Assembly: GCA_025786725.1 (NCBI GenBank)
Contig: JAHLTZ010000034.1
Coordinates: forward strand, 220,973 to 284,972
Direction of reading: 5' to 3'
DNA: 64,000 nucleotides
DNA from: Syncephalis fuscata
Lineage: Eukaryota > Zoopagomycota > Zoopagomycetes > Zoopagales > Piptocephalidaceae
Each line of letters begins with the position of its first letter. Within the stretch, counting starts at the first letter, position 1. The notes under the pieces are model-generated. The model saw nothing but the letters and a program-made list of their open reading frames with translations. It made no database searches and was not told the DNA's origin. Below, piece by piece: positions 7,346 to 59,124 of the stretch. A program made the position numbers and the translations under genes.

Positions 7346-7830
7346 TATTTATATAATACACATAATTTTGATGTTTCTGATATTATCTTTATATTGTTAT
7401 CATATCTTCTAGTCAGCATAAAATATTAATAATATAAAAAATAAATAATCAATATGTACAATAAATTTTTTTATGCTATGGCAATGATAAAAATGCCTGA
7501 ACTAATTTTACCAAATATTGCAAATTTTCATGATAAATATACCATTTATTAATAATTATTACTATATTTGTTTCGGTAACAGTTGGATAATGATGGCATA
7601 ACAATGTGTATAATTTAGCTTAATTATAACTAAATTATAACAGCTATAACTCATACCGACAACCAATAGTGGTACATTATTAGTAGTATAGCTGATTAAA
7701 TGATCACGATGTATACAAAGTGCTATTTATTTTCAATTTATAGTCTTTTCTCAGAAAATAATAGAATCCATTAGATTGTGAGTCTGTATATAAATTGCTA
7801 TCAGCTTTATCTAATTTGGGGCTAAACGAC
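7346..7830. other. Intergenic AT-rich stretch
   Basis: No gene, RNA or clear repeat recognised. The dispersed repeat element begins at about 7831. Confidence 0.5.
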
Positions 7831-9778
7831 CAAACTTGATCACTCGCGTAACTAAACTAATATTTCTTCTATTTAACACGGGAACGGGTGGTGCATTTTG
7901 TAAATAATAAATAATTCGATACATTGATTTGGTGATTAAATGACTAAACTTAATACTATTTGCATCAAAGTTCAAATACTTATCACGTAGATTTATTATC
8001 CAGTATGCATATATTCAATACACACATAGCACTCTATCCACCTATATCATTCCCATTCTATCCCACACTGGTGTATGCCACTGTATGACATATTGAATAC
8101 ATTCTATTGTTATATATTTTAATTACATGTAGTTTGCTAAATGAATGAGTTGAAATTAGTTGACGTCTATTAACAATAGCTCTATACCAAAAAAGACTAT
8201 AATAGCTAGCGCGTATTTATTAAACAATAAAACAATATACAATATAATGATTATACAATGTCGAGCACTGATTAGCAGTGTTGAAGTTAATAAACATATA
8301 TATATATGAACAAATGAGCGACATTAGTCGAAACTTATCAATAATAAAGCTAAAACAAAATAAAAACAGTTTCAAACAGAGTAAGGCTAAGTGAGTATAG
8401 AATGATATAGAATAGAATAGATATACAATAGAAAGTGTATGATAGTTAATATTACAGTTACATTGTATATAGCGTAATGAGTGGAATGAGGTTAAGGTCA
8501 AGCATTTGCGCTAAGCATTATGTGCCAGCATTTGTGCTAAGCATTATGTGCCAGCATTTGTGCTAAGCATTATGTGCCAGCATTTGCGCTAAGCATTATG
8601 TGCCATCATTTGTGCTAAGCATTATGTGCCAGCATTTGCGCTAAACCTCTTTCGTGCAACTAACTACATATCCGTTCTATTGAACATAAAACTGGTTGGT
8701 GAATGGTATTAGTAATCAGAATATTTATTATTGTATATTCATTATCTAGTACGCATATATCGTCATTGCAATACTATGTTGTTACTGTTTACACTGCTTT
8801 ATTTCTAGCTTTCTTCTCTATTTGCGTACTTATCAATCCATTGCGTCCTTATTTTGGTTGAACTTGTTATTACTGTGGATATTCATCAATTTGCTCTACT
8901 AGCATTAAAACCATAGCCAATTTGCATTAACTAGTTTATTTATCAGATAGTCACATTCCACATATATGCACGAGCAAGTAAACAAAATAATTTTAAAATT
9001 ATTAGTAATTAAACTAGCATCAAACAAAAACAGTTTCAAATAATGTATTGATATTATATAATAAAATGATATAGAATAGTATGAAAATTGGGGTTGAAGT
9101 TATAGTGTATATAACGCAATGAGTGGAGTGAGTAAAGTGTATTGGGACATATAAACAATAGAATGTGTTCGGTATAACATAGAACGATATACAGTAGTAT
9201 GGAACAGTATGAGAATGATATAGGTAAATAGTGGATATATGTATACTGGATAATGAATCTACAATGATGAGTATTTTGATTATTGATGTCACTCTCCATC
9301 CATCCTCATGTTCAGTAGATTGGATGTCATTGAATGGAGTCATTTGATCACAAAACAAACAGTATAATATGGTTATTTAATTATTTAATAAAACTCATCA
9401 TCGGCTTCATATTCAATAGAACAAGTGTGTACTTCAATTACGCAGATGTTATTAAATTTAGTTATTTGATCACCAAATCACATTAAATGACTAACAAATT
9501 GTTTAATATTACTGTAATAACAATGATATAAATAAAACAACTATATATAGTGCAACATAATTATCCTACACTAAGAAATGCACATGTATAACCTTGCATA
9601 TCATGCTGACTAGCACCAGTATTTGCTATTACAACACTATCATTACAATATAACATTGCTTAACTGCTATTTTGAAATGTTCAACAATAAAATAACGACA
9701 CTTCTATACAGGTTAAAGCATTAAATATTTGTTGAATAAATTATTTTATTTGTATAATTAAATATGTAGCATGTAAAT
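7831..9778 (-). repeat. 1.9 kb dispersed element, copy A
   Basis: The reverse complement of this interval is nearly identical to 43610-45476. The match starts at CAAACTTGATCACTCGCG (7831) and ends at GTAGCATGTAAAT (about 9778). Inside it, sequences near the two ends are themselves related in inverted orientation: GATTTGGTGATTAAATGAC at about 7930 against its complement near 9463, and TTATCCAGTATGCATATA at about 7998 against its complement near 9240. The element therefore has a partial fold-back design. Open frames on the minus strand (8220-8501, 9020-9358) are AT-rich, conserved only because the DNA is, and show no domain. The element is probably a non-autonomous transposon or a recently copied segment. 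No terminal target-site duplication was established. Confidence 0.75.
8499..8644. repeat. 26-bp minisatellite inside copy A
   Basis: Five full units plus a partial one of a 26-bp repeat beginning AGCATTTG[CT]GCTAAGC. The same array in copy B (about 44746-44812) has two full units plus a partial one. The three-unit difference (78 bp) explains nearly all of the length difference between the two elements. Confidence 0.85.
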
Positions 9779-10959
9779 TGTTTGTGTTTAATAAGTTTTT
9801 TATTTATAGAAAAAATAGTCTTAAATAAAGAATGCAGTAAATTGCTTGATAATACTTTTTGGTGCAAACAACGAAAGTATGCTTTAAATGTTATTACGAT
9901 ACCAAATTACAGTATTATGATCACATAATCATCTACCATGCGATTGATTCATGACATCCACCATGTAATTGAACAACTGTTAGCAATAACATGTGAATAG
10001 CCACAACAACAATATACTAAATACTTGCACTAACAATCATAAACAAACAGCTATCCAAGAACATAGTTAGTAAATACTTGTTGTTTACTGACATATGAGC
10101 AACCATATGAACAAGGCTCAAATTTCATTAACAATAGTATTTACTATACACTACTAGCTTTATTGAAACTATAATAAACATATCTATATTTCTAGTTTAT
10201 ATTATTTTTTATACTTTAGTTACAAATAACATTTAGTTGTTAAAAGCTTAACCGTGGTAATCAATAATTAAACAGAAAAATCACTTATTGTTTTTTTTAT
10301 AATAGCATTAGGTTCATGTTATATTAATATAAGCAATTAATTAGTATTTGCTAGCGCTTAGGTAATAGAAGTAATTGTATGCAAAACGGTAGCCATTAAG
10401 TTGCTAGTCGTTGCAGTAGTCTTTCCTTAACATAGTATCTATACCAGTACAATATCATATCATTATATGATAGTGATAGATTTGTTGCTATTTATGATAT
10501 ATCTACAAATAAGCACAGTTAATTTTATTGCCAATATACCTCACTACAGTATCCATATTTAACATTGATATATCTATATCAGCTTATGCTTATAGCTAAT
10601 ACAATATAACTGTACATGTATTTTGTTAATTTAACTATTTGATTAATAGTTAATCATTGAATACAGATAAAATATAATTATCTATATCGTAATTTGATTG
10701 TATATAGCTAAGATGAAATCTTAAGTTTATTACATGTTTGCACACTTGAATAGAAACAACTAGATGCAAGCTTGTTAGTAGTGTAGTAATTTTATTGGCC
10801 GGAGAGCGCATAAACCGGAGCATTGGCCAAAACTTGATATATAAATAGACTGGACGGTGTAGTTGTCAAATAGTCTTGCTTTTCACCAAATATATACCCA
10901 AAGTGTATCGGACTAGTGCTTCGATTGCGCTACCAATGCTAATGTCTTAAAACCATCAA

Positions 10960-11184
10960 TTATTTGCATTCTGTCGCGCATCTGCCAGGTCTGCTGCATT
11001 TTTCTTTAAGGATTCGGATCTGTTCAGGGTTCCGTCCAGGGTAAACTTCACATTCATTAATGCATCTGCTGCATTTAACTTGATCCTTAGCACGACGGAC
11101 TAAGGCTGGATTAGCATCCACCATGGTTGTAGCGGCTATCAAAGCCACAACGACGGTGCAAACGACAGCAATAGAAAGCTTCAT
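10960..11184 (-). CDS. Small secreted Cys-rich peptide, copy 1
   Basis: 74 aa. Residues 1-24 are a clear signal peptide (MKLSIAVVCTVVVALIAATT, then MVDA). A short propart ends in Arg-Arg at residues 30-31, a likely Kex2-type cleavage site. The mature ~40 residues hold six cysteines spaced C-x2-C-x3-C-x17-C-x5-C-x3-C and are Lys/Arg-rich, consistent with three disulfides. A TATA box lies about 145 bp upstream. The gene has a tandem paralogue at 13793-13999 with the same first 35 residues but a diverged mature part. I do not recognise the family. A secreted effector, antimicrobial or mating/signalling peptide would all fit. The role is inference only. Confidence 0.8.
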   Translation of the reverse strand: MKLSIAVVCTVVVALIAATTMVDANPALVRRAKDQVKCSRCINECEVYPGRNPEQIRILKEKCSRPGRCATECK

Positions 11185-11323
11185 GATAATGTTGATTTGT
11201 TAAGACAAACAAATAAAAGAGATCGTAGAGTGTGGTTGATATAAAGTGTATAGTAGTGTGTGTATAGCAAGAAGTAGAATGTGATGATGATATCGTAGTT
11301 GATGGTTGTATATATTTTGTAGG

Positions 11324-11332
11324 CTATTTATA
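11324..11332 (-). promoter_or_regulatory. TATA box of peptide gene copy 1
   Basis: The minus strand reads TATAAATAG about 140-148 bp before the start codon of the peptide at 10960-11184. The same box is at the same distance in the second copy. Confidence 0.6.
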
Positions 11333-13792
11333 CTTATGATTATGTTGAGCTGCCAGCATACTGTAGTATACGAGATATACCATTGGTATGTAGTATGCGC
11401 CAATAAAACAATCCAAACGATGGTTTGAAATGCGTATATACCAATAGATTTAGGTGTGATAGCATGCTTTTTAGTTTTGATTTCAACCTGCTCAGTCTTG
11501 ATTTAACCTGCCTGGTCTTGATTTTAACCTGCCCGGTCTTTACTTCAATCTGCTAGCCATTTGCCCGAATAATGCAAAAATGGTAATAATTTAATACATA
11601 TGCGATAGAGATAGGCATATTAGCTTGTATTTTTTGTTACACGGTCTAAATACTTGGTAAAAACAAGTGTATCGTTTGGCTTTGTAAAACGATAATGCTG
11701 TTTTTGCTGTCATTTCTACCGATTCAGTCCTCAATATCCGTTGCATACAGAATAGCACACAACACTGACGTAAAAACAAATATAATATATCAAACTGGTA
11801 TTTTATACATGTTTTTACTGCCATACATAAGTCAGCTGTAGTTCTTATTTTTATCAGTTTTTAGCTGTAAACTAAATTGCATCGGCTAAATTACACGCAA
11901 TACAATATGCGAACACCATACTAGACACAATAAAAAGTTCTAACACCAATTACTAGTAAATCCGAGTGCATAATGGCTGTGGATTGCATATCAACCGGTA
12001 ATCATCCAAGGCCTAAATGTTGTCCACATTCCTGAAACCACTTCTGACAGGTTAAGCAAGATAGAATGTAGAAAAAAAGCCAAGCTTGAAATTGATGGAA
12101 AACAATTGGCAGCTCAAGGGCTTACTGGTTTAGCTTATAGCAAATCATTATCGTCATACCATGTTAGACTGAGTTTATCAACGATCCAACTATTGATGAT
12201 GCAGCTAGAACAATAGCGCTAAACGAAAGTAACGCATGGAACAAAAACATTGTACATAGCATTTAATAAAACTGCAAAATATACACATGCTGTTATGCTT
12301 TGAATTGCATAAGGGGTAATTGAGGAGAGGACGAGCGAATGAGGAGAAATCAGACAATAGCGGATGATATTGTCAACAAATGTTTACTCATGAGGTTGTT
12401 GACCAGTTAAATGAGGATTAATATAGTTACATATCATAAGTAATGATTTTATGCTGTTGTAAGTTATTAAACAGGAGAAAAAAAATCCATCTATTAGATC
12501 AAAATGTGCACTTATAATTATTTATATCAGCCATTTGTTCCATAAAAGCATATACAACTAAAGTAAATAGTAAAATAGTATTAACACCATTTTCAACTAT
12601 AAAATATGTAGTTTATATTATTTGTAAGATTCAATATCAGATATTGTACTAATCATATATGAGTTTTATTATTATAATGTCGGTTCTCTGCTTAATTCAC
12701 TTGACAATAAAAATGACAGAATGTTATTACGATACCAAATTACAGTATTATGATCACATAATCATCTACCATGCGATTGATTCATGACATCCACCATGTA
12801 ATTGAACAACTGTTAGCAATAACATGTGAATAGCCACAACAACAATATACTAAATACTTGCACTAACAATCATAAACAAACAGCTATCCAAGAACATAGT
12901 TAGTAAATACTTGTTGTTTACTGACATATGAGCAACCATATGAACAAGGCTCAAATTTCATTAACAATAGTATTTACTATACACTACTAGCTTTATTGAA
13001 ACTATAATAAACATATCTATATTTCTAGTTTATATTATTTTTTATACTTTAGTTACAAATAACATTTAGTTGTTAAAAGCTTAACCGTGGTAATCAATAA
13101 TTAAACAGAAAAATCACTTATTGTTTTTTTTATAATAGCATTAGGTTCATGTTATATTAATATAAGCAATTAATTAGTATTTGCTAGCGCTTAGGTAATA
13201 GAAGTAATTGTATGCAAAACGGTAGCCATTAAGTTGCTAGTCGTTGCAGTAGTCTTTCCTTAACATAGTATCTATACCAGTACAATATCATATCATTATA
13301 TGATAGTGATAGATTTGTTGCTATTTATGATATATCTACAAATAAGCACAGTTAATTTTATTGCCAATATACCTCACTACAGTATCCATATTTAACATTG
13401 ATATATCTATATCAGCTTATGCTTATAGCTAATACAATATAACTGTACATGTATTTTGTTAATTTAACTATTTGATTAATAGTTAATCATTGAATACAGA
13501 TAAAATATAATTATCTATATCGTAATTTGATTGTATATAGCTAAGATGAAATCTTAAGTTTATTACATGTTTGCACACTTGAATAGAAACAACTAGATGC
13601 AAGCTTGTTAGTAGTGTAGTAATTTTATTGGCCGGAGAGTGCATAAACTGGAGCATTGACCAAAACTTGATATATAAATAGACTGGACGGTGTAGTTGTC
13701 AAATAGTCTTGCTTTTCACCAAATATATACCCAAAGTGTATCGGACTAGTGCTTCGATTGCGCTACCAATGCTAATGTCTTGAAACCATTGA

Positions 13793-13999
13793 TTATGCGC
13801 ATTCCGCCTTGCATCTGCCAGGTTTGTTGCATTTTTCTTTCGCATCAGGTTTAGGGACTCCTTCACATTCATTAATGCATCTGTTGCATTTAGCTTGATC
13901 CTTAGCACGACGGACTAAGGCTGGATTAGCATCCACCATGGTTGTAGCGGCTATCAAAGCCACAACGACGGTGCAAACGACAGCAATAGAAAGCTTCAT
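13793..13999 (-). CDS. Small secreted Cys-rich peptide, copy 2
   Basis: 68 aa. Residues 1-35 (signal peptide, propart and the RR site at 30-31) are identical to copy 1. The mature part keeps all six cysteines, but the middle loop is shorter: C-x2-C-x3-C-x11-C-x5-C-x3-C. Many residues are changed; CSRC becomes CNRC, the loop becomes GVPKPDAKEK, and the end becomes CKAECA. An 18-bp in-frame deletion relative to copy 1, or insertion in the other, explains the length. Regulation should match copy 1, since the upstream DNA is almost the same. Confidence 0.8.
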   Translation of the reverse strand: MKLSIAVVCTVVVALIAATTMVDANPALVRRAKDQAKCNRCINECEGVPKPDAKEKCNKPGRCKAECA

Positions 14000-14138
14000 G
14001 ATAATGTTGATTTGTTAAGACAAACAAATAAAAGAGATCGTAGAGTGTGGTTGATATAAAGTGTATAGTAGTGTGTGTATAGCAAGAAGTAGAATGTGAT
14101 GATGATGTCGTAGTTGATGGTTGTATATATTTTGTAGG

Positions 14139-14147
14139 CTATTTATA
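14139..14147 (-). promoter_or_regulatory. TATA box of peptide gene copy 2
   Basis: TATAAATAG on the minus strand, at the same relative position as in copy 1. Confidence 0.6.
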
Positions 14148-15506
14148 CTTATGATTATGTTGAGCTGCCAGCATACTGTAGTATACGAGATATACCATTG
14201 GTATGTAGTATGCGCCAATAAAACAATCCAAACGATGGTTTGAAATGCGTATATACCAATAGATTTAGGTGTGATAGCATGCTTTTTAGTTTTGATTTCA
14301 ACCTGCTCAGTCTTGATTTAACCTGCCTGGTCTTGATTTTAACCTGCCCGGTCTTTACTTCAATCTGCTAGCCATTTGCCCGAATAATGCAAAAATGGTA
14401 ATAATTTAATACATATGCGATAGAGATAGGCATATTAGCTTGTATTTTTTGTTACACGGTCTAAATACTTGGTAAAAACAAGTGTATCGTTTGGCTTTGT
14501 AAAACGATAATGCTGTTTTTGCTGTCATTTCTACCGATTCAGTCCTCAATATCCGTTGCATACAGAATAGCACACAACACTGACGTAAAAACAAATATAA
14601 TATATCAAACTGGTATTTTATACATGTTTTTACTGCCATACATAAGTCAGCTGTAGTTCTTTATTTTTATCAGTTTTTAGCTGTAAACTAAATTGCATCG
14701 GCTAAATTACACGCAATACAATATGCGAACACCATACTAGACACAATAAAAAGTTCTAACACCAATTACTAGTAAATCCGAGTGCATAATGGCTGTGGAT
14801 TGCATATCAACCGGTAATCATCCAAGGCCTAAATGTTGTCCACATTCCTGAAACCACTTCTGACAGGTTAAGCAAGATAGAATGTAGAAAAAAAGCCAAG
14901 CTTGAAATTGATGGAAAACAATTGGCAGCTCAAGGGCTTACTGGTTTAGCTTATAGCAAATCATTATCGTCATACCATGTTAGACTGAGTTTATCAACGA
15001 TCCAACTATTGATGATGCAGCTAGAACAATAGCGCTAAACGAAAGTAACGCATGGAACAAAAACATTGTACATAGCATTTAATAAAACTGCAAAATATAC
15101 ACATGCTGTTATGCTTTGAATTGCATAAGGGGTAATTGAGGAGAGGACGAGCGAATGAGGAGAAATCAGACAATAGCGGATGATATTGTCAACAAATGTT
15201 TACTCATGAGGTTGTTGACCAGTTAAATGAGGATTAATATAGTTACATATCATAAGTAATGATTTCATGCTGTTGTAAGTTATTAAACAGAAGAAAAAAA
15301 ATCCATCTATTAGATCAAAATATGCACTTATAATTATTTATATCAGCCATTTGTTCCATAAAAGCATATACAACTAAAGTAAATAGTAAAATAGTATTAG
15401 CACCATTTTCAACTATAAAATATGTAGTTTATATTATTTGTAAATGCGTAGTGATTCAATATCAGATATTGTACTAATCATACATGAGTTTTATTGTTAT
15501 AATGTC

Positions 15507-15878
15507 AGCCATCTGTTTTATTTGACTGTATATAACTTGTTCAATCATAGGAATAAGACTTTAAAACAGTTATAATCATTAAGATGATCAAAATAAGTGC
15601 AATGGTGATAAAAATGAGTTAGATTGATATTAATTAAAACTACTCAATATGGTAATTATAATAATACATTAATTAAATTGTTTATTAATGGTAATAGCAA
15701 CAGCATGAATGGGCACAGCGTCTTACCATAATCATATTTTATTATATCCAATTGCATAAATACAATTTAGAAGTATTGTTTATTTATACTAGATACCTAA
15801 AATTTTATTTAAACAAACTTTTTTGTAAAATTTTCCAGTAAGCATATAGTCTGTATGCAGCGCAAAATTTTTGCAAAA
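15507..15878. other. Intergenic AT-rich stretch
   Basis: No gene recognised between the tandem duplication and the tRNA. Confidence 0.5.
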
Positions 15879-15951
15879 GCTTCCTTGGCTCAGTTGGTAG
15901 AGCGTCAGTCTCATAATCTGAAGGTCGCCAGTTCGAGCCTGGCAGGGAGCA
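15879..15951 (+). tRNA. tRNA-Met (CAU)
   Basis: 73 nt including the discriminator A. Acceptor GCTTCCT pairs with AGGGAGC. The D arm has TGGCTCAGTTGGTAGAGC. The anticodon loop CTCATAA gives CAU, and the T arm contains the B-box GTTCGAGCC. No intron. The TA-rich anticodon stem and absence of initiator-type features fit an elongator tRNA-Met, though I did not check all identity bases. A T5 run at 15991-15995 could be the Pol III terminator. Confidence 0.92.
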
Positions 15952-37451: not shown

Positions 37452-40355
37452 TTAAGCTAAGTAATAATGTTAGATGTGAGCTATTTGTAATATTACAGAT
37501 ACTTACCAGCCTTGACCATGGCAATATCAACCTTTGCATCATTCATTTGAAGATGTTCCATGGCCTATAAATGAATTGGTTATTGATAACGTTATATTGA
37601 GTATTCATAAACTTACTTGATCCTTCGTTCCTGTCAAACATAAAGTAGTAGTGAAGTGGCGCTTGTCACTCGTATAAGTCGAATGGTGAATACCAATAAA
37701 TTGGTTTGTACTTGTTTCTTCAAGTGTCATTTCTTTCACTGTATTCTTCTCCTTCTCGTCTTCTTCCTCTTCTTCATCGATTGAATGATTGGTTTTAAGA
37801 ACAATCGTATCATCTTTTGACTTTGCATCAAATGATTGACCTTCATCAACGGATCTATACCTAACAGTGGTGGTTTGTTTAGGTCGTCGACCATCGACGG
37901 CCAGATCAATATGTACATCAATGTACATTGGCTGAGTACCCGCCTTCTTGAAACGTAACAATAGTGCATGTCTTTGATCTTCTGGGGGATAGCTAATGGT
38001 ATAGTGTGTAGTGGCACTTGGATTCATCATATTGCCTTCCATACCACTGGTTGTGACCGCTCCTGTTGATACAAAATCAACCCATTCGACATCCGTGTCC
38101 AATAGTTTGTTTGTAATTATAACAGTCAATTGATAAGGAGTGGCACTTTTTGGTTCTATTAAAATAGTATTTGGCTAATTAGTTTTACATTAATCCATTG
38201 AAATAAAGCTTACTTTCACACTTTTCATACTGGTCCTTGTAAAGTGCCTATTGAAGCAAGTGATTAATTAATTAAAGATGATATTACTTGAATTATACAT
38301 TAGATGGTTACCTCTGTATCAAACGGATCTTGTAATGAAATAGAGAATAGCTGCGGTGACTTGATCATCTCGTAAGTCATAAGATTTGCGGTACTTTTAC
38401 AAGGTAGGGTAATAGTGCGCTCCATAAGATGCGTCACTTCATAGGTATTCTCCATAATAGTGTTGGATATTACTCCACCTATGTTCTTTCTGAGATTAGC
38501 TTGTTTTAAAAAGTAGCTAGCAAGCTTGTTAATCTGTTCTCCTGAACGTTTGTCACGACGTGTATAGATCACTGCAGTGATGTAATTATTAGTACCCCAG
38601 GATACTACTAGCAGACAGCGGTGTGGTGAAGTCTTTACACCTTTCTTCGATGTAATCGCGTAAATTTGCTGGATATAATTGCGCTCTGTCGGTATTGGCC
38701 GTCGATGCAAACAATAGCCATGCTGTAATAACAGACCATCGTCGCACTCGCAAATAAACCTTTCGTCTCTTTCGCCGTGGGCGGGATATATCGGCTCAAT
38801 TAGCATACCGGAAGAACTATTGTTGTCAACAAGTACTAGGCCTGGCCCAGTAATTGATTTCTTTTTTAAATAATCATTGACATCGCCCATTACACTATGT
38901 GTAGGAAGTCTATTAGTTATGTAAATTACGTAATGATAAAAGTTAGTCATTTATCCTATTATTAAATGTTTTGTAAATAATAGTAAACTACCTATAATAA
39001 TCTGTTGATAAAAATGACGGAATACCATGCAAGTTTGACCGTAAAGACTTTCTAAGCATAATGTCGAGTACTGCATGTGGCTCCATACGGAATGCAACCT
39101 TCATTTGAAGACCCAATTCATCAAGTCGCCATTCGGCCGGGTGTCCAACCGACACCATGTAATGACTAAGCATATCGTTATGCGCATTGATAAGCGAGTC
39201 ATTTGATCGCGGAAATATTCCATCCTTTACAGTTAACATCTTAATGCTTGCTTTACGCTTGCTAGCATCGTGTGGCACCACAAGCGCATCAATGGCCAAA
39301 AACGTACGTCTTCCCCATAGTAAAGGCTGGTCGCTATTATAGCGTGTAAGCTCAAAAACAAGACATCCACTTGTTCGTGCAAACATAACACCGGCCGATT
39401 TAAACTTGATAATTGTATTATCATACGGACCCACAATGAGTGACGGCTTCATGGATTGTTTTCCTTCAAAAGGAGTAGGTTCAAAATTGCACAATAATAG
39501 TTCATCGCACTCATTGCGAATAATGATTTTGCAACTACTACTAATAAGACTAATCTTTGAATTGGTACTACTTGATGCTATGTTAATAACAATAGCAATA
39601 ACAATAATAAGTTATAGTAATAAACGTTTTGCACAAATAGTAATACTTACTACCATCGTCCCACGAAGAAGGCAATTCAATACTAATGGCCATAACATTA
39701 ATAAAACATTTTGTAGTGTATTATTAGTTCAACTTACTTATTTGTCTTTATAAGATAGGGCCGGATAGATTTCTTGCGATGGCCCGCTTTTCAAGAACAA
39801 CATTCATTGTACTAAGACGTGTATCGGTCATACTTACACTAACGGTGAAATCGTTGATTGTATCATGATCAATTGACCATGTACGTGTAAGTGTATTTGA
39901 TGCATCTTCAAACTGACCAAGAACGTAGTTTTTATAGTGATCTTTTAACTGCTTTTCATTCCAAGAAAAAGCATTTCGATCATTTTCAATCAGATCCATT
40001 ACAACATGGAGCGACCATTAACTTGGATCTTCCAACCCAGTAAGAGGTATAGATTCTTCATACTGGTTTCTTGACCATCACGCCGATTAATACCGTAGAT
40101 AAGACATCCATGTAGTTTAAGACTTGATGTATTTGCCTTAAATTTGGCCACCGTCTCTTTCATCGGCTTTATTTCAAAGGTTGGCACTCCATGACATTCG
40201 CCGGACGAGCAATAGCGCACAAAGTGTCGAAATACTAAATTCGAGTGCTGGTTCGAGACATTAATATCAAGAGTAGTCCGAGTATTTTCCCATATAAAGT
40301 AGCCGGCCTTGCCTAGCAGTTCAGCCGCTTTTACCACTTCTCCGACGCCAGCCAT
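37452..40355 (-). CDS. Multi-module protein, paralogue of 48151 gene, two frame breaks
   Basis: About 865 aa if read through two apparent one-base gaps. It starts MAGVGEVVKAAELLGKAGYF (40355) and consists of at least four related ~170-230-residue beta-rich modules, each with a hydrophobic strand such as LYLLLGWKI or CLLVVSWG. The last exons encode an acidic insertion (EEEEEDEKEK) and a short terminal helix. The 816-aa gene on the plus strand at 48151-51189 has the same module order, so they are paralogues. The modules faintly recall the actinoporin-type beta-sandwich (strand, turn, G-x-x-x-Y, then a Tyr/Trp-rich strand), but this is a weak impression and no function is assigned. Frame breaks: around 39999-40005 (TAA, with ATG overlapping) and around 39760-39790. 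Each needs one extra base, so this is either an assembly error or a decaying copy. Confidence 0.6.
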
Positions 40356-43609: not shown

Positions 43610-45476
43610 ATTTACATGCTACATATTTAATTATACAAATAAAATAATTTATTCAACAAATATTTAATGCTTTAACCTGTATAGAAATGTCGTTATTTTA
43701 TTGTTGAACATTTCAAAATAGCAGTTAAGCAATGTTATATTGTAATGATAGTGTTGTAATAGCAAATACTGGTGCTAGTCAGCATGATATGCAAGGTTAT
43801 ACATGTGCATTTCTTAGTGTAGGATAATTATGTTGCACTATATATAGTTGTTTTATTTATATCATTGTTATTACAGTAATATTAAACAATTTGTTAGTCA
43901 TTTAATGTGATTTGGTGATCAAATAACTAAATTTAATAACATCTGCGTAATTGAAGTACACACTTGTTCTATTGAATATGAAGCCGATGATAAGTTTTAT
44001 TAAATAATTAAATAACCATATTATACTGTTTGTTTTGTGATCAAATGACTCCATTCAATGACATCCAATCTACTGAACATGAGGATGGATGGAGAGTGAC
44101 ATCAATAATCAAAATACTCATCATTGTAGATTCATTATCCAGTACACATATATCCACTATTTACCTATATCATTCTCATACTGTTCCATACTACTGTATA
44201 TCGTTCTATGTTATACCGAACACATTCTATTGTTTATATGTCCCAATACACTTTACTCACTCCACTCATTGCGTTATATAGACTATAACCTCAACCCCAA
44301 TATTCATACTATTCTATATCATTTTATTATATAATATCAACACATTATTTGAAACTGTTTTTGTTTGATGCTAGTTTAATTACTAATAATTTTAAAATTA
44401 TTTTGTTTACTTGCTCGTGCATATATGTGGAATGTAACTATCTGATAAATAAACTAGTTAATGCAAATTGGCTATGGTTTTAATGCTAGTAGAGCAAATT
44501 GATGAATATCCACAGTAATAACAAGTTCAACCAAAATAAGGACGCAATGGATTGATAAGTACGCAAATAGAGAAGAAAGCTAGAAATAAAACAGTGTAAA
44601 CAGTAACAACATAGTATTGCAATGACGATATATGCGTACTAGATAATGAATATACAATAATAAATATTTAATTACTGATACCATTCACCAACCAGTTTTA
44701 TGTTCAATAGAACGGATATGTAGTTAGTTGCACGAAAGAGGTTTAGCGCAAATGCTGGCACATAATGCTTAGCACAAATGCTGGCACATAATGCTTAGCG
44801 CAAATGCTTGACCTTAACCTCATTCCACTCATTACGCTATATACAATGTAACTGTAATACCAACTATCATACACTTTCTATTGCATATCTATTCTATTCT
44901 ATATCATTCTATACTCACTTAGCCTTACTCTGTTTGAAACTGTTTTTATTTTGTTTTAGCTTTATTATTGATAAGTTTCGACTAATGTCGCTCATTTGTT
45001 CATATATATATGCTTATTAACTTCAACACTGCTAATCAGTGCTCGACATTGTATAATCATTATATTGTATATTGTTTTATTGTTTAATAAATACGCGCTA
45101 GCTATTACAGTCTTTTTTGGTATAGAGCTATTGTTAATAGACGTCAACTAATTTCAACTCATTCATTTAGCAAACTACATGTAATTAAAATATATAACAA
45201 TAGAATGTATTCAATATGTCATACAGTGGCATACACCAGTGTGGGATAGAATGGGAATGATATAGGTGGATAGAGTGCTATGTGTGTATTGAATATATGC
45301 ATACTGGATAATAAATCTACGTGATAAGTATTTGAACTTTGATGCAAATAGTATTAAGTTTAGTCATTTAATCACCAAATCAATGTATCGAATTATTTAT
45401 TATTTACAAAATGCGCCACCCGTTCCCGTGTTAAATAGAAGAAATATTAGTTTAGTTACGCGAGTGATCAAGTTTG
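43610..45476 (+). repeat. 1.9 kb dispersed element, copy B
   Basis: Reverse complement of 7831-9778, nearly identical over its whole length apart from the shorter 26-bp minisatellite. Being 34 kb apart in opposite orientation, the two copies could support inversion by recombination. Confidence 0.9.
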
Positions 45477-48150
45477 ATAATTTAATTTTCATTCATCTTA
45501 AATATAGCTATAACAAACTTAAAATAAATAAATGACTAACTAGATTATTAGCTAGTATTGCTAAGATAGATAGTGTGATGTAGCTGTATTGAACGTAGCT
45601 ACTTGTAATACATTAATGTTTGCGAGAAGAAAAAACCATATTTGTTTAATAGAAGAACTACCTGAATATTAATACGATAATATGAGCCAAATAAATAAAC
45701 AAAATTTTGCGGCTCTATGCTTGCTGAATTTGAGGTGTTCCTAAATATATATCTATTGAAGACAAAATAAGTAAATTGTATGCGTAAATCAGCTATAGCA
45801 ATGCTGCTTGTCACGTAGCCCATTGGTAAACACTCGAAGCGGCTGTTATACGTAATCAAAAACCGCAATGATGCTGTTGCGCAGATTGATTACAGAATGA
45901 TGGTAACTGCATTGTAAATCAGCATGGCCAGAGACAGAAATAACGGCTTTATAATTATTCAACTAACCGACTGTTCACTAATCTTAGCCTGCATATTCAT
46001 GGAGGCAGTTTGTATACGTTTTACCGTATAAATCCTATGCATTTCTATGCAGTGTCCCAATAGCAACCGTTGGATATACAACGCACAATTTTATCCTTCA
46101 TTTAAATCAACTAACATACAGATGATTTTTAAAAAATCCGTTGTCTATACACTCTAAATGCTTGTCAGTGTGACTACATAACAAACACATAGCGAACGCC
46201 ATGTTTATTAAACAGAAGTTCAACTGATTATGTGTATTCTAACATCGTTTGCAGCATGTTGGGGTGCATGTTGCAAAATCATACAGCGTCTAGTTGCCTG
46301 TATATCCAGCAATGCTCACATAATCAAAGGCACGACTGTATTGCGCTACACGTGCCAGTTTGCTTAATATGCTAAACGGTAAGCAGTGGTAATCTTGTAA
46401 TCTTCAAGTAATTTACGGGCGTAAGATAAGCTGAATAACAAATAACAACAAAAGTAGCGTAAGTATATTGGACAAAAAGGAATGGTAAGAGAAGATAAAA
46501 AACGTAGTGTTTGGTTTGGAAAAGCGATAAAGCCAACTTGTATTAGGGCAATGGCGAGATTCCGCAATGAAACATGACATCTAAGACCGCTTAAGGACGA
46601 CGAACTACGTATTATTGCCAGTCTTCAGTAAAAGCAACTATTGGTGCGGTATTCAATAACCGTTTGTCTTTTTGTACATTTATTGCTATTTCACATATTG
46701 ACTGAGCATTAATACGGGCAATATATTTAAAATATGATAAACTGATGGATTAAATCTACGTTACACGATTCAACCGATCAAGCGTAAAATGATCTATGCT
46801 AAATTTGTGTGAATGACATAGTAAAAAGTTTTATTTGTTTAGTCATGTTATTATGCCTTTATTTTAAGCAGTGCTGATCATTTAGCCAACACTCAGAGCA
46901 ACCAAATTAAACCAGACTTAGGCCAATAGGTATAATATATATTATTGGCTTATATGCTGAGTACTAATGTAACCTATTTAAAATATCTTTAAAGCAAATT
47001 GTTTTTGGCTGAGCTTATTCGACACAATTAAAAGCAATAATAAAGTGGGCAACACTATCTATAATCATATCGTAGATACGTCTATACTTTGTCTTTATGT
47101 TCAAATGCCATTTATTTAGTCAGGTTGGCTATAGGAAAGTGGCTGTTTAATAAACAACTTTATAATAAGTATATTAATCTTGATCTTACATCACAAATAT
47201 ACCCAAAATATAATAGTAGAATATTAGAAAATAGAAGAGACCATTCAGATGCAATAATCCATGTTGTACATAGATGCAACAACAACAAATGCGAAATAAC
47301 ATAAATTGCAATTATATGGCTTCTATTAATATTCAGTCAATAGCTCTACACATGGACAGTAACAACAATAATCGGCCTTAAATGTTTCAAAGAACTCAAA
47401 TAGTATGTTACATTGTTTATTAAAATGTTTAAAATAGCAGCTACTAATACAGTCTTTTGTTATATTTAATCAATTCTATTTTATGGAAATGCTAATGGAT
47501 AATAATATTAAATTAATTTTTATTGTGAGTGATGATTTAAACACTAATCAATCTAATCAACTCATTATCGTCGATTGCGTAAAAAGATTTACTGCACTAA
47601 AGTAGGGGACGCAAAGTAAATGTCAGCATAAATGTTAAATCACTATGACGATATTATGGCTAGATACGTTTACAGAGTTCGATCAACTGACTCTGTTGGT
47701 CATCTATTAATAGATAGCGTATCGTATACTGAAATGGCCAGCTGATATTTGCCATTCAATAATATTTTATTGTATATATACACGATTAATTGCCACATGC
47801 TTTACTAAGCATTGATGAGTCAATTGCACACAAATAAAAACTGGATTCCGAATAGGGCTTGGCCATTATATTTTATCCGTTTGATCATCTGTCTTTCTTA
47901 TCCGTTAATCCGCCACTTAAAACATCGCTTTGAATCAATAGTAGTCCATAGCAATATGCTTTTATGTATAAAAAAGTAGTTTTCACTTTTTTCTTCTTCT
48001 TAAAGCAGGCAGTTTTACTTCCTTTGGTCACTATTTCACTCTACGTTTATTTCACTCCTATTTACGTTTCTCAGTGCATCTGACTTTGAATATCTTACAA
48101 GACGCTATTGATTGATATTGGCATTTATAGGTGTGCATTCTATTGTAAAT
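45477..48150. other. Intergenic with one Fanzor-like relic
   Basis: No gene supportable at 45477-47090. The relic lies at 47101-47600. Just before the 48151 gene there is a TATA-like TATAAAAAAG at about 47968 and a T/C-rich leader. Confidence 0.45.
47101..47600 (+). mobile_element. Fanzor-like zinc-ribbon relic, copy 4
   Basis: Reads NLDLTSQIYPKYNSRI, then DHSDAIIHVVHRCNNNKCEI, then a stop. Both Cys of the first CxxC are now Tyr, while the CX4C pair survives. Nucleotide similarity with copy 2 spans about 500 bp, including the 3' flank to GATTGCGTAAAA. Confidence 0.5.
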
Positions 48151-51100
48151 ATGTTGGCAACAGCCACTACAGCAACCAGTGCAACACTGCACGTTTGCAA
48201 TCAGTCCAAAGCGTATAGATTTGACCAAAGAATCTTTTACAGCAATGATGGTAGTCGTAATGAACAGGCCATGCCTATTGTTTATGGCGAAGAATATTTA
48301 GAAACGCTGAAAGGCGTTGAAGGCACGCTACTCTACAATGTCCATGCCGAGACAGGGGAAAGTGGGTTATTAAAGCTGTACATCCTAGTAGGATGGGACT
48401 GGGCGTCTAGCACTTTTTATCTAGGCTTGGTAGAATGTGAAAAAGGGGATACGGCTGTGTGGCGTACACCGCGTGAATTCCATACATGGTTTAACCGTGC
48501 ATCAAGTAAACTACTCGTCAACGACCAACACAATATCGTTTGCTGGTCTGTTTTCAACGCCGATCGATTTGCCTTAAGCGCTGCCTTCAATGGCGAGACA
48601 TCAACCATTGATGTCATTATACAAAACACTACACAACAAATCACATCCCGTCCATTAGAGCCGTAAGTTATTTTATAAATGTCATCACAATAGACTGATG
48701 TCACTAACTGTTGAATTAATTAATGGCGATCATTACATTTTATTTATAGAATCGCGGCTATGCAACGAAGCAAGACAGCTAGCGAAGGTAAGTGTCACCA
48801 TAGTGTTCCTTTGTCTTCTTTTCTGCTTTCTTTATTGCTATATATATGTTTAAATAGTACATAAATAAGGGGGAGTAGAAGCGTTGGCACTTTATTATCA
48901 CTGCTATCGCCATTGCGTGTATTAACCAATGGCATTTCTATCTTTTTTAGTCGTATATTCTGAGGCCTCATCGAAGATGAAAAAAATAGTACCGGCCATT
49001 CGAAAAACTATGCGTGGTATAGCCGTCAATATTGAAATTACACATCCAGATATTGCTCTATGTCATCCAGTGGCCTATCCAAATTTTGTTCCAGAAGCAC
49101 TGGTATCGAAGGACATTGTTCGTATGGGCCGTCCCTACTATGCTAACTTTCAAGGCTCTCCTTTATCGACGATGCGTGGCTTTTTAATGTATCGTTTGGT
49201 AAAGCGGATTCTGACCGATGATCAAGGCTACGACTTTGGTCAGGCTGCACTATTAGGCAGTACGCATATCTATTTAGTAATTGGTTGGAAAATACCCGCA
49301 CTAAAGGCAAAAAAAACTTGTGCGTTTATGGTACAATTTGAAGATAATACAGTGCCAACCAGCGATGAGGCGAAAGAGCAGTTTTTAAATGGATTTATCA
49401 ATGCCATGCTTGGGTCGGAACATGAAACAAATGCCTATGCGCTAGATCATGGTGTACGATTTCAGATGCTAGCTAAGGCAAGTAGCCAGTTGAAGTTTAC
49501 CATTTCTGTAGAACTTGCACCACTTGGCAAGTCGTTAGGCACAGCGAATATTACAGATGACAATTTTGAGTCATTTGCCGGTTTTGTATCTTATTATCCA
49601 AAAGATGGGTTTATGTAAGTGTAAATTACTGATATTAGTATATGTGGCTTATTATTTATTTAATATTTATCAGGTGTTCAATGAAGGATGCACGTAAAAA
49701 GATCGTTGACGAGTTGAAGAACATTAAAAAGACGTCACCACTTTGTTTGCTGCATTTAGTAGAAAACAGAAGTAGTCATCTACAACTAAAGTTTGTAAAC
49801 TCAGATGAAAATAAGCATGTATCTGGATCCAAGATAATATTAGGCCAAGGGGAGTTCGACTATAATCATACACTTGTGGCCGATGAAAAACACTTGATTC
49901 ATCGAGTATTTGAAGTGATATCGGATTTTAGTCAAAATACGAATAATATGGATAGTGATAACGAGCAGCAAACGTTTTTGGTTATTGGAAATGAGGCATT
50001 TACCTCAACAATGGCCATTGTATTCTGCTGGTCGGCACAAGAGAAAAATATTAGTGGCACACAGATACGGCACTTTGTAGAAGAGGTTGAAGCGATGCAT
50101 CTATTTATTGCAGGCAGTTTACAAGTGCAATCCTTTATCGATTACAATTTTGAAAAGTTTTCGATCATTGGTTATAAAACACTTTCTACACCACAAGTCA
50201 TGACGGTGGCTTTGGATGATAAGGTTTACAGTGGGGTAAGTGGCATTTTATGAAATAACACGAAGCTAACCAATATACGTATCATTTATCGTTTATCATC
50301 AAATTATAGAAACAAAGTAAGTGATAATACTCATTTCTAGTAACTTTTACTAATAATATCATTTATAAATTTAGTTTGTGAATCCAAATTGCCACGCTGT
50401 CTCGAACTAACCATTGAGAATCGACATCCATCGGTAACATTTGTTGAACCTCACATCATGAGTATTGGATGTAAATTCATTAAGGATATGTCGGTAACAC
50501 ATATTACGCCTAATGGCCGTGTTTCCTGTCTATTCAGCGCACTTCCACTTGAAGGTTGTTTGGGTCGTGGTATGCGTATTAGCTATGCACTTGAGTACCA
50601 CAATGACCATAAATCGCTGACAACGGGCGAGAAACACGAGAAACAGGTACAAATTACCTGGAAGGCCGATCTAGATGGCACCAATAGACATAACGAATCG
50701 TACGAATCATATATACATTTTTCTTCCCCTGAAAACACTTATAAACGAGAAGAGACAAGCGAGACGATTTATTCGAGGCGTGGTTTTAACGATACAGCAC
50801 CCGATTCGGCGGTGATTGAGACTTATGTGCATGGATCTACTCGATGCTATGTGGCATTGATTCTTTTACCAGGTAACCGATCGGCTGCTTCTCGACTTTA
50901 TATTCTGGCTACCGCCTCACTTAACGATGTAAGTAATGATGATGATAATGATTAGTTGATCAGTATATTTTGATAGAGTTATGTTACTAATCTTACATTC
51001 ATTATTAGATTAAAAAATATACTGCAGATCTTAATCAAACGCCTGGCCATGCATCAGATGGCGATGATGACGACGATGACGACGATGATAACGCAGGTAA

Positions 51101-51189: not shown

Positions 51190-52308
51190 CCAATTAATGG
51201 TCACTTTGACCCATGTTTATACATAGATTAACTACACCATCCACTATACAACGACCGTTTTCTTTGTAGCATTTCTTTCTTTATAATTTAGTACATCTTT
51301 ATTACAATGATACAGTAACATGTAGTCACCTGACTTGTATCAGCATATTATCATATATGCTATTTTTTATTAATTAAATAGCAATGACCTTTTTTGCAAA
51401 TATGATCTATTAAGTCAGTCGTATAGAAATAACTACACACCCACCATTCAGTTTATTAATAATAGCTGTAATTGAATGTGCTACATTGTGGCTATTCAAC
51501 ATTTTGTTACTCATTTAATATGAATAGTGTTAATTGGCTCCACTTAATAATATTTCTTTTTATTACTTGATATTTTAGTGTATCGTTATGGTATAGCTGT
51601 TATTTGCGAGCTCATAATAGACTAATCAAATATTAGTTTTTGTTCGCTTTTTACTTTACTCTTTTTAATAATCTACAGTATTGTTTTGCGCATTTATTTC
51701 ACATGTATTTACTATCTAGAAAGCTGTTATTCCATACTTATTGTAAATGTCGCCACATTGTTACATTCTCACAGTATTGCAATATTGCTACTTATGTTGT
51801 CTATTTTTTTTAACTTTCTTTAATTTCATATAAATCTATTTGATATAAACTAGTTCAGCAATCATTAGTCATAAATAATTAATCAAGTGTATATTTTTAA
51901 TAAAACACTAGGTTTGTGCACACCTATATTACTTGTTTTATCCATATATATATATATATATATATATACGACTCAATAAACAAAGTTAGTCAAAGTGTAT
52001 TGATAATTGAACTAGAGACAAATGGGCAGCAGTTATTAATAATACGTGGCTACTACAAATAAATGAAATAGTATGAATAGCTATATTGAATTTATAATGC
52101 GTAAAACCTTACCATCGATGCATAATATCTATAAACATTGTAAAATAATAATAATTGTTATTTTGAATACATAGGACCATTGTAAAAATGCAATATGTTT
52201 GTTTCCAATAGCTATAATTATAATAAAATACTTTAAAATGCCAATAAAGTGCCATTCTACAAATTTAATCGTGAAAGTATTGCGTTAATGTTACAATAAT
52301 ATTTAGCA
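51190..52308. other. Intergenic AT-rich stretch
   Basis: No gene recognised. A TA dinucleotide run of about 11 units lies at 51945-51967. Confidence 0.55.
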
Positions 52309-53950
52309 GTATTAAAAAGCTATTTTAGTGCAATTAGGTGCTAAAAGGTAATAAAAACAATAATGGTAGTTTAGTTAATAAAACGTTACTAAAATTATTT
52401 ATAATTTTATGTAAAATGAAGCAAATTGTATGATATTTTGCACAAGTATGCGTATAACATGTAAGTAGCTATTGGCAAAATATACTGCTATTGTATTGTG
52501 TGATGGTGTAGTACTTATGATAATACGCTAATAAATGTACAAAAATAGCAGTTTTTTTGCCAATTATGGCTCGTATAAACAAAATACAGCAAAATGATTG
52601 CCGGATTCGAGTTCTCCATGCCTAGTTATACAGATTGGCATAAGAAATAAAGCAACGATTTTTGCAACAAAAGTTAGTCAAAAATGTAATTTACGTATTT
52701 GTAATATATCTAATAAATTGTTGCTAAAATACGTATAACTTAACGTATGATAAAGCAAATTGTCTGATATTTTGCACAAGTATGCATATAATATGTAAGT
52801 AGCCATTGGCAAAGTATACCGCTATTGTATTGTGTGATGGTGTAGTACTTATGATAATACGCTAATAAATGTACAAAAATAACAGTTTTTTTGCCAATTA
52901 TGACTCGTATAAACAAAATACAGAAAAATGATTGCCGGGTTCGAGTTCTCCATACTTAGATAATTAGATTAGCATAAGAAATAAAACATTAATTTTTGCA
53001 GCAAAAGCTAGTCAAAAATGCAATTTATGCGTAAATAGTTAACAGTGTTTTATATTGTATGTAAATGTATGGCATAAATTGTTAATTTACATCAGTATTT
53101 CTGTATACTAAATTGCTATTACGATTGCCTTAGTACTTTAGAGAACTTAAGTCTTCCTTGAACTAAATATATTTTTACTATTTATTTTCCAAAATCATAA
53201 ATTTTTATCATTTTTTCAATAAATATTTACATGTAAATTGCATTTTTGGCTAACTTTTGCTGCAAAAATTAATGTTCTATTTCTTATGCTAATCTAATTA
53301 TTTAAGTATGGAGAACTCGAATCCGGCAATCATTTTGCTGTAGTTTACTTATACAAGCCATAATCCGTAAAAAACTGCTATTTTTACACATTTATTAGCG
53401 TATTATTATAAATACTACACCATCACACAATACAATAGCGGTATACTTTGCCAATGGCTACTTACATATTATATGCATACTTGTGCAAAATATCAGACAA
53501 TTTGCTTTATCATACGTTAAGTTATACGTATTTTAGCAACAATTTATTAGATATATTACAAATACGTAAATTACATTTTTGACTAACTTTTGTTGCAAAA
53601 ATCGTTGCTTTATTTCTTATGCCAATCTGTATAACTAGGCATGGAGAACTCGAATCCGGCAATCATTTTGCTGTATTTTGTTTATACGAGCCATAATTGG
53701 CAAAAAAACTGCTATTTTTGTACATTTATTAGCGTATTATCATAAGTACTACACCATCACACAATACAATAGCAGTATATTTTGCCAATAGCTACTTACA
53801 TGTTATACGCATACTTGTGCAAAATATCATACAATTTGCTTCATTTTACATAAAATTATAAATAATTTTAGTAACGTTTTATTAACTAAACTACCATTAT
53901 TGTTTTTATTACCTTTTAGCACCTAATTGCACTAAAATAGCTTTTAATAC
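52309..53950. repeat. Large imperfect palindrome with nested direct repeats
   Basis: Left arm 52309-53027 and right arm 53234-53950 are reverse complements with few mismatches, around a 206-bp unique spacer. Each arm holds two direct units of about 334 bp. In the left arm GCAAATTGTNTGATATTTTG begins at 52421 and again at 52755, and both units end in TTCGAGTTCTCCATNC. No coding potential. The design is that of a fold-back transposon or a hairpin-RNA locus. Confidence 0.88.
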
Positions 53951-54732
53951 GGCCACAGCTAGTGTAAATTGATATTCACTATTAATTGTATAACATAACG
54001 ACAACCAATAACACTTCCAATTTCGTCTTCAATGACTATAGAGCTTTATAGTATATAATAGCCATCTTGCATAATTATACAATTTATCAATGATGTTGTT
54101 TATGTTTAATATACACAATCATTAATATTAATAAAACACCCGATACACATAAATAGCACATTATTCTTAACATATGTAATCTTATTTTTATTCCCGTATA
54201 GTGAATATGCATTAGTACATGCTTTTATGTATTTAAAAAATCGTGGAAAATTGCTTAAAGTAGAAAGTCGATATTAACACCAAAAAATAGCATTTAAATC
54301 ACTTTTTAGCTGTTAACACTGTCGTTCAAATTCGTATCGCTATACCTTGCTTCAAATAATAAAGCTCTAGAGAAAGAGAGATGAGTTTTACTAATACATT
54401 TTTTATTATAATAACGATATTAGTATTACATTTGATTATCTTTAGATATTATTTACTATTTATAGCTTACACATGTTATCATACCATTATTGGAAAACTG
54501 GCTATGTTTTGACCCTTGTGCGGACCCATTTAACTAACACACGTGAATTTATCTCTAAATTGATCTGTACTGCCGTTTATATTTGTGTATTTCATGGACT
54601 GCTCAATAAAAAATATTAGCCGACTTGTTGTTCGTTAAATAGCATGGGATTTTTAGATACAGTCTTAAAATATCTTTCCCTTTTACTTTTTATCAGTTGA
54701 AAATCATTTATGTCAAATTTGACGAGCAAATA
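53951..54732. other. Intergenic, upstream of the subtilase gene
   Basis: AT-rich, nothing recognised beyond the likely promoter of the downstream gene. Confidence 0.45.
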
Positions 54733-57970: not shown

Positions 57971-59124
57971 TTAGCGGTAGCGACGGAGGGACAAGGTGTT
58001 GTTGCGGCGCCAAGCGGCACGACGACTGCCACCGATGAACTTGTTGAATCCGTGACCTTTGCCAACACCACGGTTCTTGCGACCGATGGAGGTAAGACCA
58101 CGAGCTTCGCGGTGCTTGTGGACAGAGTTGACGATCCAGTTGATGCGTGGGTCAGAGCGGATGACCTTGTGGCTTGGGTCGACAAGAATGACCTCAAAGT
58201 ACTTGTAGGTCGAGTCTTGGTTGACCCAGTAGCTGTTAAGAACGCGCAAGTTGGGGCAACGACGGCCGATACGGTTCTCGGCAGTGTAGCGGTGGGAGTG
58301 CTGGTACTTGAGCTCGTTGATACCCATGGAGTGGGGCTTACCAAAAGTGGCACCCTTAGCAACTGGGCGCTTGCGACCACCACGACGAACGCGAATGCGG
58401 TAGATCACGTAGCCTTGTTTGGCCTAAATTAATATAGCAATTAATAAATATATAATTATTTGGCAGTAGCATATATAATAATTTACCTTATAGCCAAGGC
58501 GACGTGCCTTGTCTGGGCGGGATGGGCGAGAGGCACGGTGAATAACATTCAACTGGCTAATGATTGTGCCGCAAATTAAATCCATATAGAAGCGCCATTT
58601 AAATATAGCAAGACCCGCCAAAATCGAACATAAACAAGCAGCAAAAAAAAAGAAAAAGTAAGCGACTATTCGTCAAATGATCATTGGCGTTTGTGCACGC
58701 TCGAGGGTTGCAGCCACAAACTGCTTCATAAGAAACAGTATGCGCATTATTGACTTGTTGTCGTTAAACAACATTATCAATAATGACGACCAGGCAGGTC
58801 GACGCCATGCAGCACGCTCGACGGACCGCCTAAGACGAACCGCCACAAGGAAATACACACGCTGTCCAAAATCAATATTATAGCCTATTCAAAAGAGCGC
58901 AATATTACTTTTGAACAGCGCGTGCTCGCATTTTTTCTGTCTATCTGCCTGCCTTGGTTAGCAAAAGATAGACAAGACAGCCAGGTAGGCAGAAAATATA
59001 CAAGTGTTTATATTATACGCTCAATTGCTTACCGGTACTCCCAGCAGCGGACACGCAGCAAAAAGCGAAGCACATCCGACTGCTTCTTCTTGTAAAGCTC
59101 CTCAATGTACTTGTAAGCACCCAT
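57971..59124 (-). CDS. RPL15: 60S ribosomal protein L15 (eL15)
   Basis: Three exons (59124-59033, 58556-58487 and 58423-57971), 204 aa, the standard eL15 length. [20 protein letters not shown], then [80 protein letters not shown]. It is part of the large cytosolic subunit. GC content of the coding exons is clearly above that of the surroundings, as expected for a highly expressed gene. Intron 1 (58557-59032, 476 bp) is much longer than others here and contains structured, GC-richer sequence. A 5' UTR intron may lie upstream, from a GTAAGC donor near 59515 to an acceptor near 59148. Confidence 0.97.

Follow-up and report, generated by a model that had tools for sequence, protein, structure and literature searches.

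Why do two adjacent copies of a fungal DNA segment agree almost throughout and yet differ strongly within the part of a short gene that encodes its mature peptide? The question is raised by a 64,000-nucleotide (nt) stretch of Syncephalis fuscata DNA (NCBI GenBank assembly GCA_025786725.1, contig JAHLTZ010000034.1, positions 220,973 to 284,972 of the forward strand), which as a whole is called the window here. A tandem pair of 2.8-kb segments in the window carries two small genes, A and B. These genes are very probably two intronless members of a large family of secreted, cysteine (Cys)-rich, probably Kex2-cut peptides, and most family members read here would be trains of micro-exons, mostly of one codon each.

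Self-BLAST aligned copy 1 with copy 2 at 97.8% identity over 2,821 bases. Read off this alignment, the differences outside the gene block (10949-11078, left out of the flank count) and the frayed right end were 8 substitutions and two indels, of 1 bp and 9 bp, in ~2.6 kb, a flank divergence of ~0.3%; the last 70 bp of the copy (12628-12697) contained 8 further substitutions. Codons 1-35 of A and B showed 0 differences. From codon 36 onward 22 bases differed (5 synonymous and 17 non-synonymous changes by the Nei-Gojobori method, NG86), in addition to an 18-bp indel, giving a synonymous divergence (dS) of 0.32, a non-synonymous divergence (dN) of 0.25 and a dN/dS of 0.77. All six core Cys were present in both genes. 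A sequence-only reading of the window had claimed near-identical copies with few flank changes, ~20 substitutions and an 18-bp indel in the mature region, and an unchanged signal peptide and propart with six kept cysteines, and these counts bear it out. Equal divergence of flanks and mature region, which that reading had named as speaking against it, was clearly not observed.

Two explanations had been offered for the pair, diversifying selection or homogenisation of the flanks, and the second fits better. Point selection after a recent tandem duplication would agree with the many non-synonymous changes (17/22), the nearly identical flanks and the retained Cys residues, but it is unlikely to account for the core dS of 0.32 or for three non-coding differences located no more than 11 bases past the stop codon (10949, 10957, and 10958), which the sequence-only reading had not mentioned. 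Since silent sites and positions past the stop have also changed, the core block appears older than its flanks, and homogenised flanks or an exchanged core therefore explain the pair better. Upstream of the genes B and A are 99.8% identical, yet the core of B is 87.6% identical to that of a third gene (L009) and only 79.4% to that of A. In some pairs of micro-exon trains the non-coding core introns were likewise far more diverged than the flanks (L031/L055: introns 0.192, upstream 0.016). Replacement of a core by that of a paralogue, or flank homogenisation, is thus the most likely source of the A/B difference, rather than selected point mutation alone; with a dN/dS of 0.77 at this dS, selection is not shown. 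An assembly artefact, or a pair of alleles placed end to end, is in our view extremely unlikely as the origin of the tandem copy. Short contigs with family members in this single genome could be haplotigs, but the two copies are parted by 22 other bases (12698-12719), their borders are frayed and non-identical, and the family is scattered across many contigs.

By eye, the leader of A and B has a hydrophobic N-terminus ending in VDA, followed by an RR site. The Cys spacing of A is C-2-C-3-C-17-C-5-C-3-C, and B has 11 in place of 17. From these features the peptides are predicted to be secreted, cut at RR by a Kex2-type protease and stabilised in their cores by disulfides. For comparison, the alpha-hairpinin fold has the pattern CX3C...CX3C, with two disulfides holding two helices together. 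In Pfam no family scored above its cut-off for either peptide; the best match of A, Fer4_10, was set aside at 16.3 bits (cut-off 25.5), and B had none. A relation to a PDB entry, searched for A only, was also set aside (best E 0.55).

The leader-start pattern had 255 matches with at most three mismatches in the 29-Mb S. fuscata genome and 0 in the reversed control, so the A/B pair is no chance resemblance. A protein search of the same genome gave 301 candidates; among the best 150 of these 301, most matched just the first 30-50 residues. Upstream sequence was largely common to 23 aligned leader spans (up to 300 nt upstream), and in a DNA search of the genome the 3' untranslated region (UTR) was conserved across the family in the best 40 of 208 candidates scored. 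Among the fetched loci were 20 short spans, of which three (L024, L026, and L028) were cut views of trains, leaving 17 intronless genes. One of these, L015, closely resembles A (99.8% identical upstream, about 95% in the core) but has a broken frame. The intronless cores were quite different from each other, and 12 of the 16 readable ones start with C-2-C-3-C as in A and B and continue with three or more further Cys. The frozen leader and hypervariable Cys-framed core that the sequence-only reading had noticed in the pair therefore extend to the family, and its remark that no family with such spacing was known agrees with the Pfam result and with two protein searches of limited sensitivity (one over 5.8 billion proteins), in which none of the 4 and 13 hits came from outside S. 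fuscata. Just 13 annotated family proteins were found. One (P0001) is identical to an open reading frame (ORF) in L009, and the model P0002 starts with the family leader and continues into intron-like sequence. Four proteins (P0008, P0009, P0010, and P0012) have a family-type leader before quite different bodies, that of P0009 (111 aa) being without a Cys core, so gene models place the leader in front of other proteins as well.

In the remaining copies, stop codons come after the leader, and tandem units fill the about 1-4 kb up to the shared 3' UTR. Such leader-only copies were at one point taken for truncated genes, an explanation dropped once the 3' UTR was located about 1-4 kb downstream. 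Each unit of ~81 bases comprises a ~78-nt intron (GTAAGT...TTAATATTAATAG) and three bases before the next GTAAGT. Introns were chained with donor and acceptor weight matrices, seeded from sites read off the loci and then retrained on them. The decoder had no frame term; it allowed exons of 1-60 nt with a small penalty above 15, and restricted donors to GT or GC and acceptors to AG. From 37 long spans, three (L022, L023, and L025) were dropped as cut views of L049, L029, and L051, and L066 was dropped as not being a train, leaving 33; L052 and L061 had no 3' UTR within their stretch, and L069-L071 lie outside the decoded set. In the last three, train units follow leader-like starts that have diverged or are broken, and the family therefore probably exceeds the 255 leader matches.

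The 33 decoded trains contained 954 introns with a median length of 78 nt, 902 of them between 70 and 85 nt (935 GT-AG and 19 GC-AG). The 921 internal exons were 874 of 3 nt, 39 of 6 nt, and 8 of other lengths. The introns before the 6-nt exons mostly stop three bases short (usually 77 nt, with ATTAG instead of AATAG), so that the unit length is preserved. Trains held about 9-38 micro-exons, mostly of one codon each, and the last exon carries the stop and the conserved 3' UTR. In all 24 trains that decoded cleanly, the first exon was 94, 97 or 112 nt long, which is 1 modulo 3; the introns cut codons after base 1, and a Cys codon reads as T and then GC or GT across an intron. Among the train cores, that of a train with 36 introns and a 68-residue protein (L067), AKDPAKCNQCMSQCYGNYPYPSQAINDCPKRCAKQCK, comes closest to the cores of A and B. 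Genome-wide, the pattern TWATAG-N3-GTAAGTNRYAT had 1,901 matches (reversed control 0). With other spacings matches (reversed in parentheses) numbered 7 (3) at 2 nt, 3 (1) at 4 nt, 4 (0) at 5 nt, and 4 (1) at 6 nt, the last count understating the 6-nt exons because their acceptors mostly have no TWATAG. The strict pattern recovered 473 of the 874 decoded 3-nt exons, which gives a rough figure of perhaps 3,500 such exons in the genome. A looser unit scan of the 64-kb window gave six isolated matches and no tandem units. The window does contain a minus-strand gene (57971-59124), presumably that of ribosomal protein L15, with apparently conventional introns by eye (e.g., GTAAAT...TTTAG, ~63 nt), which makes short GT-AG introns plausible in this genome.

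Long inserts were seen in some train introns. Eleven trains (L050, L063, L068, L041, L045, L039, L055, L065, L030, L033, and L036) each had one intron of 466-502 nt with a related insert, which occupies a similar position within its unit, though in units with indices anywhere from 1 to 26. A tRNA-like A-box was present in 9 of the 11, and the insert resembles a tRNA-derived short interspersed element in reverse orientation; an Rfam scan of L063 named nothing for it. Another kind of long insert was found in the second introns of L030, L033, L032, and L057 (885-903 nt, 78-98% alike).

The leader exon ends at codon position 1 and so sets the reading phase of the train. As decoded, 24 of the 33 trains were clean in this phase, and two more (L030 and L033) are in frame when the upstream of two AGs is used for one exon, for a total of 26. 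Across the 24 clean trains the leader phase contained one stop in 680 codons and 122 Cys, against 10 stops in 704 codons and 60 in 680 codons, with 3 and 25 Cys, in the other two phases. When exon order was shuffled 1,000 times, the mean was 44.0 stops (minimum 30) and 60.6 Cys (maximum 78). Twenty-three of the 24 genes were free of stops, compared with at most 10 in any shuffle; the sole internal stop was in L041, a short peptide. Of the 26 in-frame trains, 19 had at least six core Cys, and 18 of these 19 start with C-2-C-3-C; three others had four Cys, and four short ones had one or two. As in intronless members, the shared 3' UTR follows immediately on the stop, except that in 5 of the 24 the stop comes one codon early (a Cys followed by two stops) and in L041 earlier.

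That the units are an intron-like non-coding minisatellite, with only intronless members such as A and B as real genes, is highly improbable on this evidence. The units are tandem, AT-rich (23.6% GC) and mutually similar, and the few annotated family proteins would suit a minisatellite, but the joined triplets are open in the leader phase only, with about twice the Cys of shuffled order, their reading frame closes at the stop and 3' UTR region that the intronless genes also have, the splice hexamers are constrained, and the triplets are 45.2% GC against 23.6% in the train introns. Every unit has a donor and an acceptor, so splicing could also skip the whole array as one long intron, leaving a near-empty propeptide and trains that are decaying coding relics, as the loss of frame in 7/33 trains might suggest. 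We regard this as very unlikely given the 26 in-frame trains, the 23 of 24 without a train stop, and splice sites that are more conserved than intron interiors.

That conservation was measured in close train pairs. Ten pairs chosen by eye were aligned, and the six without large exon-bearing gaps were pooled. Changes were seen at 11 of 2,008 splice hexamer sites, 403 of 13,450 intron interior sites, and 31 of 508 micro-exon sites. The difference between hexamers and interiors (p about 1e-13) makes the splice sites look constrained, although the decoder's preference for consensus sites has to be borne in mind.

The train introns form one sequence family. Mean identity was 0.769 between neighbours, 0.740 between introns further apart, 0.737 between genes, and 0.670 for shuffled interiors; within arrays it dropped with distance, from 0.764 at lag 1 to 0.733 at lag 12. 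Of 33 cases of near-identical neighbours, 8 had the same coding triplet, compared with 34 of 824 in the comparison set. The decay with distance and the shared triplets fit copying of whole units. Gaps of 79-89 bp with exactly three exon bases were seen between some paralogues: two in L031/L055, one in L059/L065, and one in L062/L065. L059 and L065 had no differences at 499 upstream positions, yet their trains differ, including an 81-bp gap that carries one codon. One 82-bp gap falls in a badly decoded part of L065.

In trees of the upstream and the downstream flanks (52 sequences), train and intronless genes were intermixed, with 7 and 8 parsimony changes, respectively. Supported neighbours in the upstream tree were L018/L067 (0.90), L012 with L050/L051 (0.91), and L047 with L038/L043 (0.92). 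Since ~30 introns would have been lost at once with promoter and flanks kept, recombination with complementary DNA (cDNA) would be the simplest route to an intronless member. The reverse direction, from an intronless gene to a train, is also conceivable.

Several observations count against this account of the trains. Seven of the 33 are out of frame as decoded (L036, L037, L040, L049, L051, L054, and L065), so that pseudogenes or sequence errors are possible among the copies. Splicing of each micro-exon is predicted from genomic DNA, the loci of this one species were chosen from the strongest hits and not at random, and the restriction to GT/GC-AG together with the decoder's consensus preference biases the splice-site comparison. 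The 6-nt exons escape the strict spacing pattern because they mostly follow ...ATTAG and not ...AATAG. Some gaps between paralogues are not unit-sized; those without exon bases measure 24-136 bp, and one is 416 bp (L040/L068). The excess of micro-exon changes over intron changes (31/508 vs. 403/13,450, p 0.0004) rests mainly on L039/L045, and without this pair it is 14/406 vs. 272/10,844 (p 0.26). The ratio of non-synonymous to synonymous proportions (NG86 pN/pS) was 0.80 over five pairs (p 0.63), and diversifying selection on the cores is unproven. The pairings of train and intronless genes in the upstream tree are absent from the downstream one, some nodes are weak, and gene conversion can mislead both trees.

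Taking the trains as micro-exon genes, each would consist of a leader exon, micro-exons separated by homologous ~78-nt introns, and a last exon with the stop and 3' UTR. Recombination between the repeated introns may copy, lose or exchange ~81-bp units. Because each unit joins three coding bases to an intron, its gain or loss would add or remove whole residues with no frame shift, and leader, promoter and 3' UTR would stay uniform while the core units change. Intronless members such as A and B would arise from time to time via cDNA, probably recurrently and with their flanks kept.

No report of 3-nt exon trains or of Syncephalis peptides was found in the literature searched, where some result lists were partial and subscription papers mostly fell outside the scope. 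In its architecture, we regard the one-codon exon train as a categorically new kind of gene, although effector genes built of micro-exons are known in general. Conotoxin-type and nematode HYP-type families, like this family, combine a hypervariable mature part with conservation of leader and flanks, and we know of no one-codon exon trains in them. The bicycle genes of aphids have exons larger than one codon, and their proteins are unrelated to the train peptides. According to the available text on the micro-exon genes (MEGs) of Schistosoma, these resemble the trains in their many short exons, mostly multiples of three; they encode variable secreted parasite proteins with a conserved signal peptide, as is predicted by eye for the train peptides, and they too are hard to annotate automatically (PMC10526429). 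Symmetric exons of this kind make up 913 of the 921 internal train exons (3 or 6 nt). For the 35 MEGs the main text gives exons of 6-81 bp and the abstract 3-81, most of them of 15 bp, with introns of 0.1-5 kb (PMC10526429), sizes that the trains do not have: 874 of their 921 internal exons are 3 nt long, their introns are ~78 nt and mutually homologous, and their cores are mostly Cys-framed. Bicycle genes (Hormaphis cornu and others) are, in the portions of the paper available, fast-evolving putative effectors with many small internal exons of one uniform phase, as in the trains, but that phase is 2 and in the trains 1 (PMC9168663). A tandem array of homologous intron-plus-codon units is not described for MEGs or bicycle genes in the accessible parts of these sources (PMC10526429; PMC9168663). 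Introner-like elements, in which many introns belong to one sequence family, are reported from fungi (PMC4457414; PMC9860276), and the available text has them inserting into many genes across a genome (PMC9860276). The train introns also share sequence beyond the splice signals (0.737-0.769 vs. 0.670 for shuffled interiors), but they stand in regular tandem, at every third coding base, in one gene family (the leader family being the only one examined).

S. fuscata belongs to the Zoopagales. The available text of PMC6784888 places S. pseudoplumigaleata among uncultured mycoparasites and cites the genus as mycoparasitic, which suggests a mycoparasitic life for S. fuscata as well. The peptides may thus have a role in attacking or handling host fungi. 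For a mycoparasite, action on host hyphae or rival microbes would be their likeliest use, to which we give about an even chance; mating or self-signalling peptides are possible. Exons of 3 nt can be skipped with no frame shift, and units could recombine through similar introns, so one locus could give many peptide variants. Whether the train is in this sense a codon-by-codon repertoire gene, in which splicing and somatic or population-level unit exchange diversify weapons combinatorially, as in immune receptors, is speculative, and we are inclined to doubt it. Four short trains with 10-14 introns (L043, L038, L041, and L048) encode short cores such as SCKYWWDCV and DPCDPFHPCTS, possibly small disulfide rings; in L038 just one of the two Cys is present.

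Should splicing follow the decoded exons, secreted peptides of a eukaryote would be assembled from dozens of one-codon exons in a row. This would challenge notions of the smallest exon usable in series, provide a natural test bed for intron definition, and tie gene architecture to diversification, with each ~81-bp repeat amounting to one residue added, dropped or swapped in frame. Standard annotation can miss such families, as the 13 annotated proteins and the P0002 model indicate. The family also gives a sequence handle on the secreted peptides of a Syncephalis.

The features of the tandem pair are collected in Table 1.

Table 1. Positions of the duplicated segments and of the parts of genes A and B in the window.
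Feature	Position	Strand	Basis
Duplicated segment, copy 1	9887..12697	n/a	Self-BLAST, 97.8% to copy 2
Duplicated segment, copy 2	12720..15522	n/a	Self-BLAST
Gene A, predicted prepropeptide of 74 aa, intronless	10960..11184	-	Translation; homologues in own genome
Leader of A, predicted signal peptide and pro-part up to RR site (codons 1-31)	11092..11184	-	Start matches 255 genome places
Predicted mature core of A, six Cys	10963..11091	-	Translation, codon comparison
Gene B, predicted prepropeptide of 68 aa, intronless	13793..13999	-	Translation
Leader of B, identical to A leader	13907..13999	-	Codon comparison
Predicted mature core of B, six Cys, nearest to C236 paralogue (L009) among those compared	13796..13906	-	
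Family-conserved promoter and 5' UTR region of A	11185..11484	-	Aligned leader spans; TATA position, TATAAATAG at 11332, 148 nt before ATG
Family-conserved promoter and 5' UTR region of B	14000..14299	-	Aligned leader spans; TATA position, TATAAATAG at 14147
Family-conserved 3' UTR region of A, common to intronless genes and micro-exon trains	10810..10959	-	Nucleotide search of the S. fuscata genome
Family-conserved 3' UTR region of B	13643..13792	-	97% to that of A

Elsewhere in the window, runs of three and four adjacent ORFs of about 184-230 aa, each run on one strand, were located at 37605-39611 and 48112-50955 and are possibly a tandem gene family. Repeats included a 1.9-kb inverted repeat (7823-9778 and 43610-45484, 94.8%), a 1.6-kb self-inverted repeat (52306-53953), and a tandem repeat with 26-bp spacing (8466-8670). 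A tRNA-Met gene lies at 15879-15951, about 360 bp past the end of copy 2.

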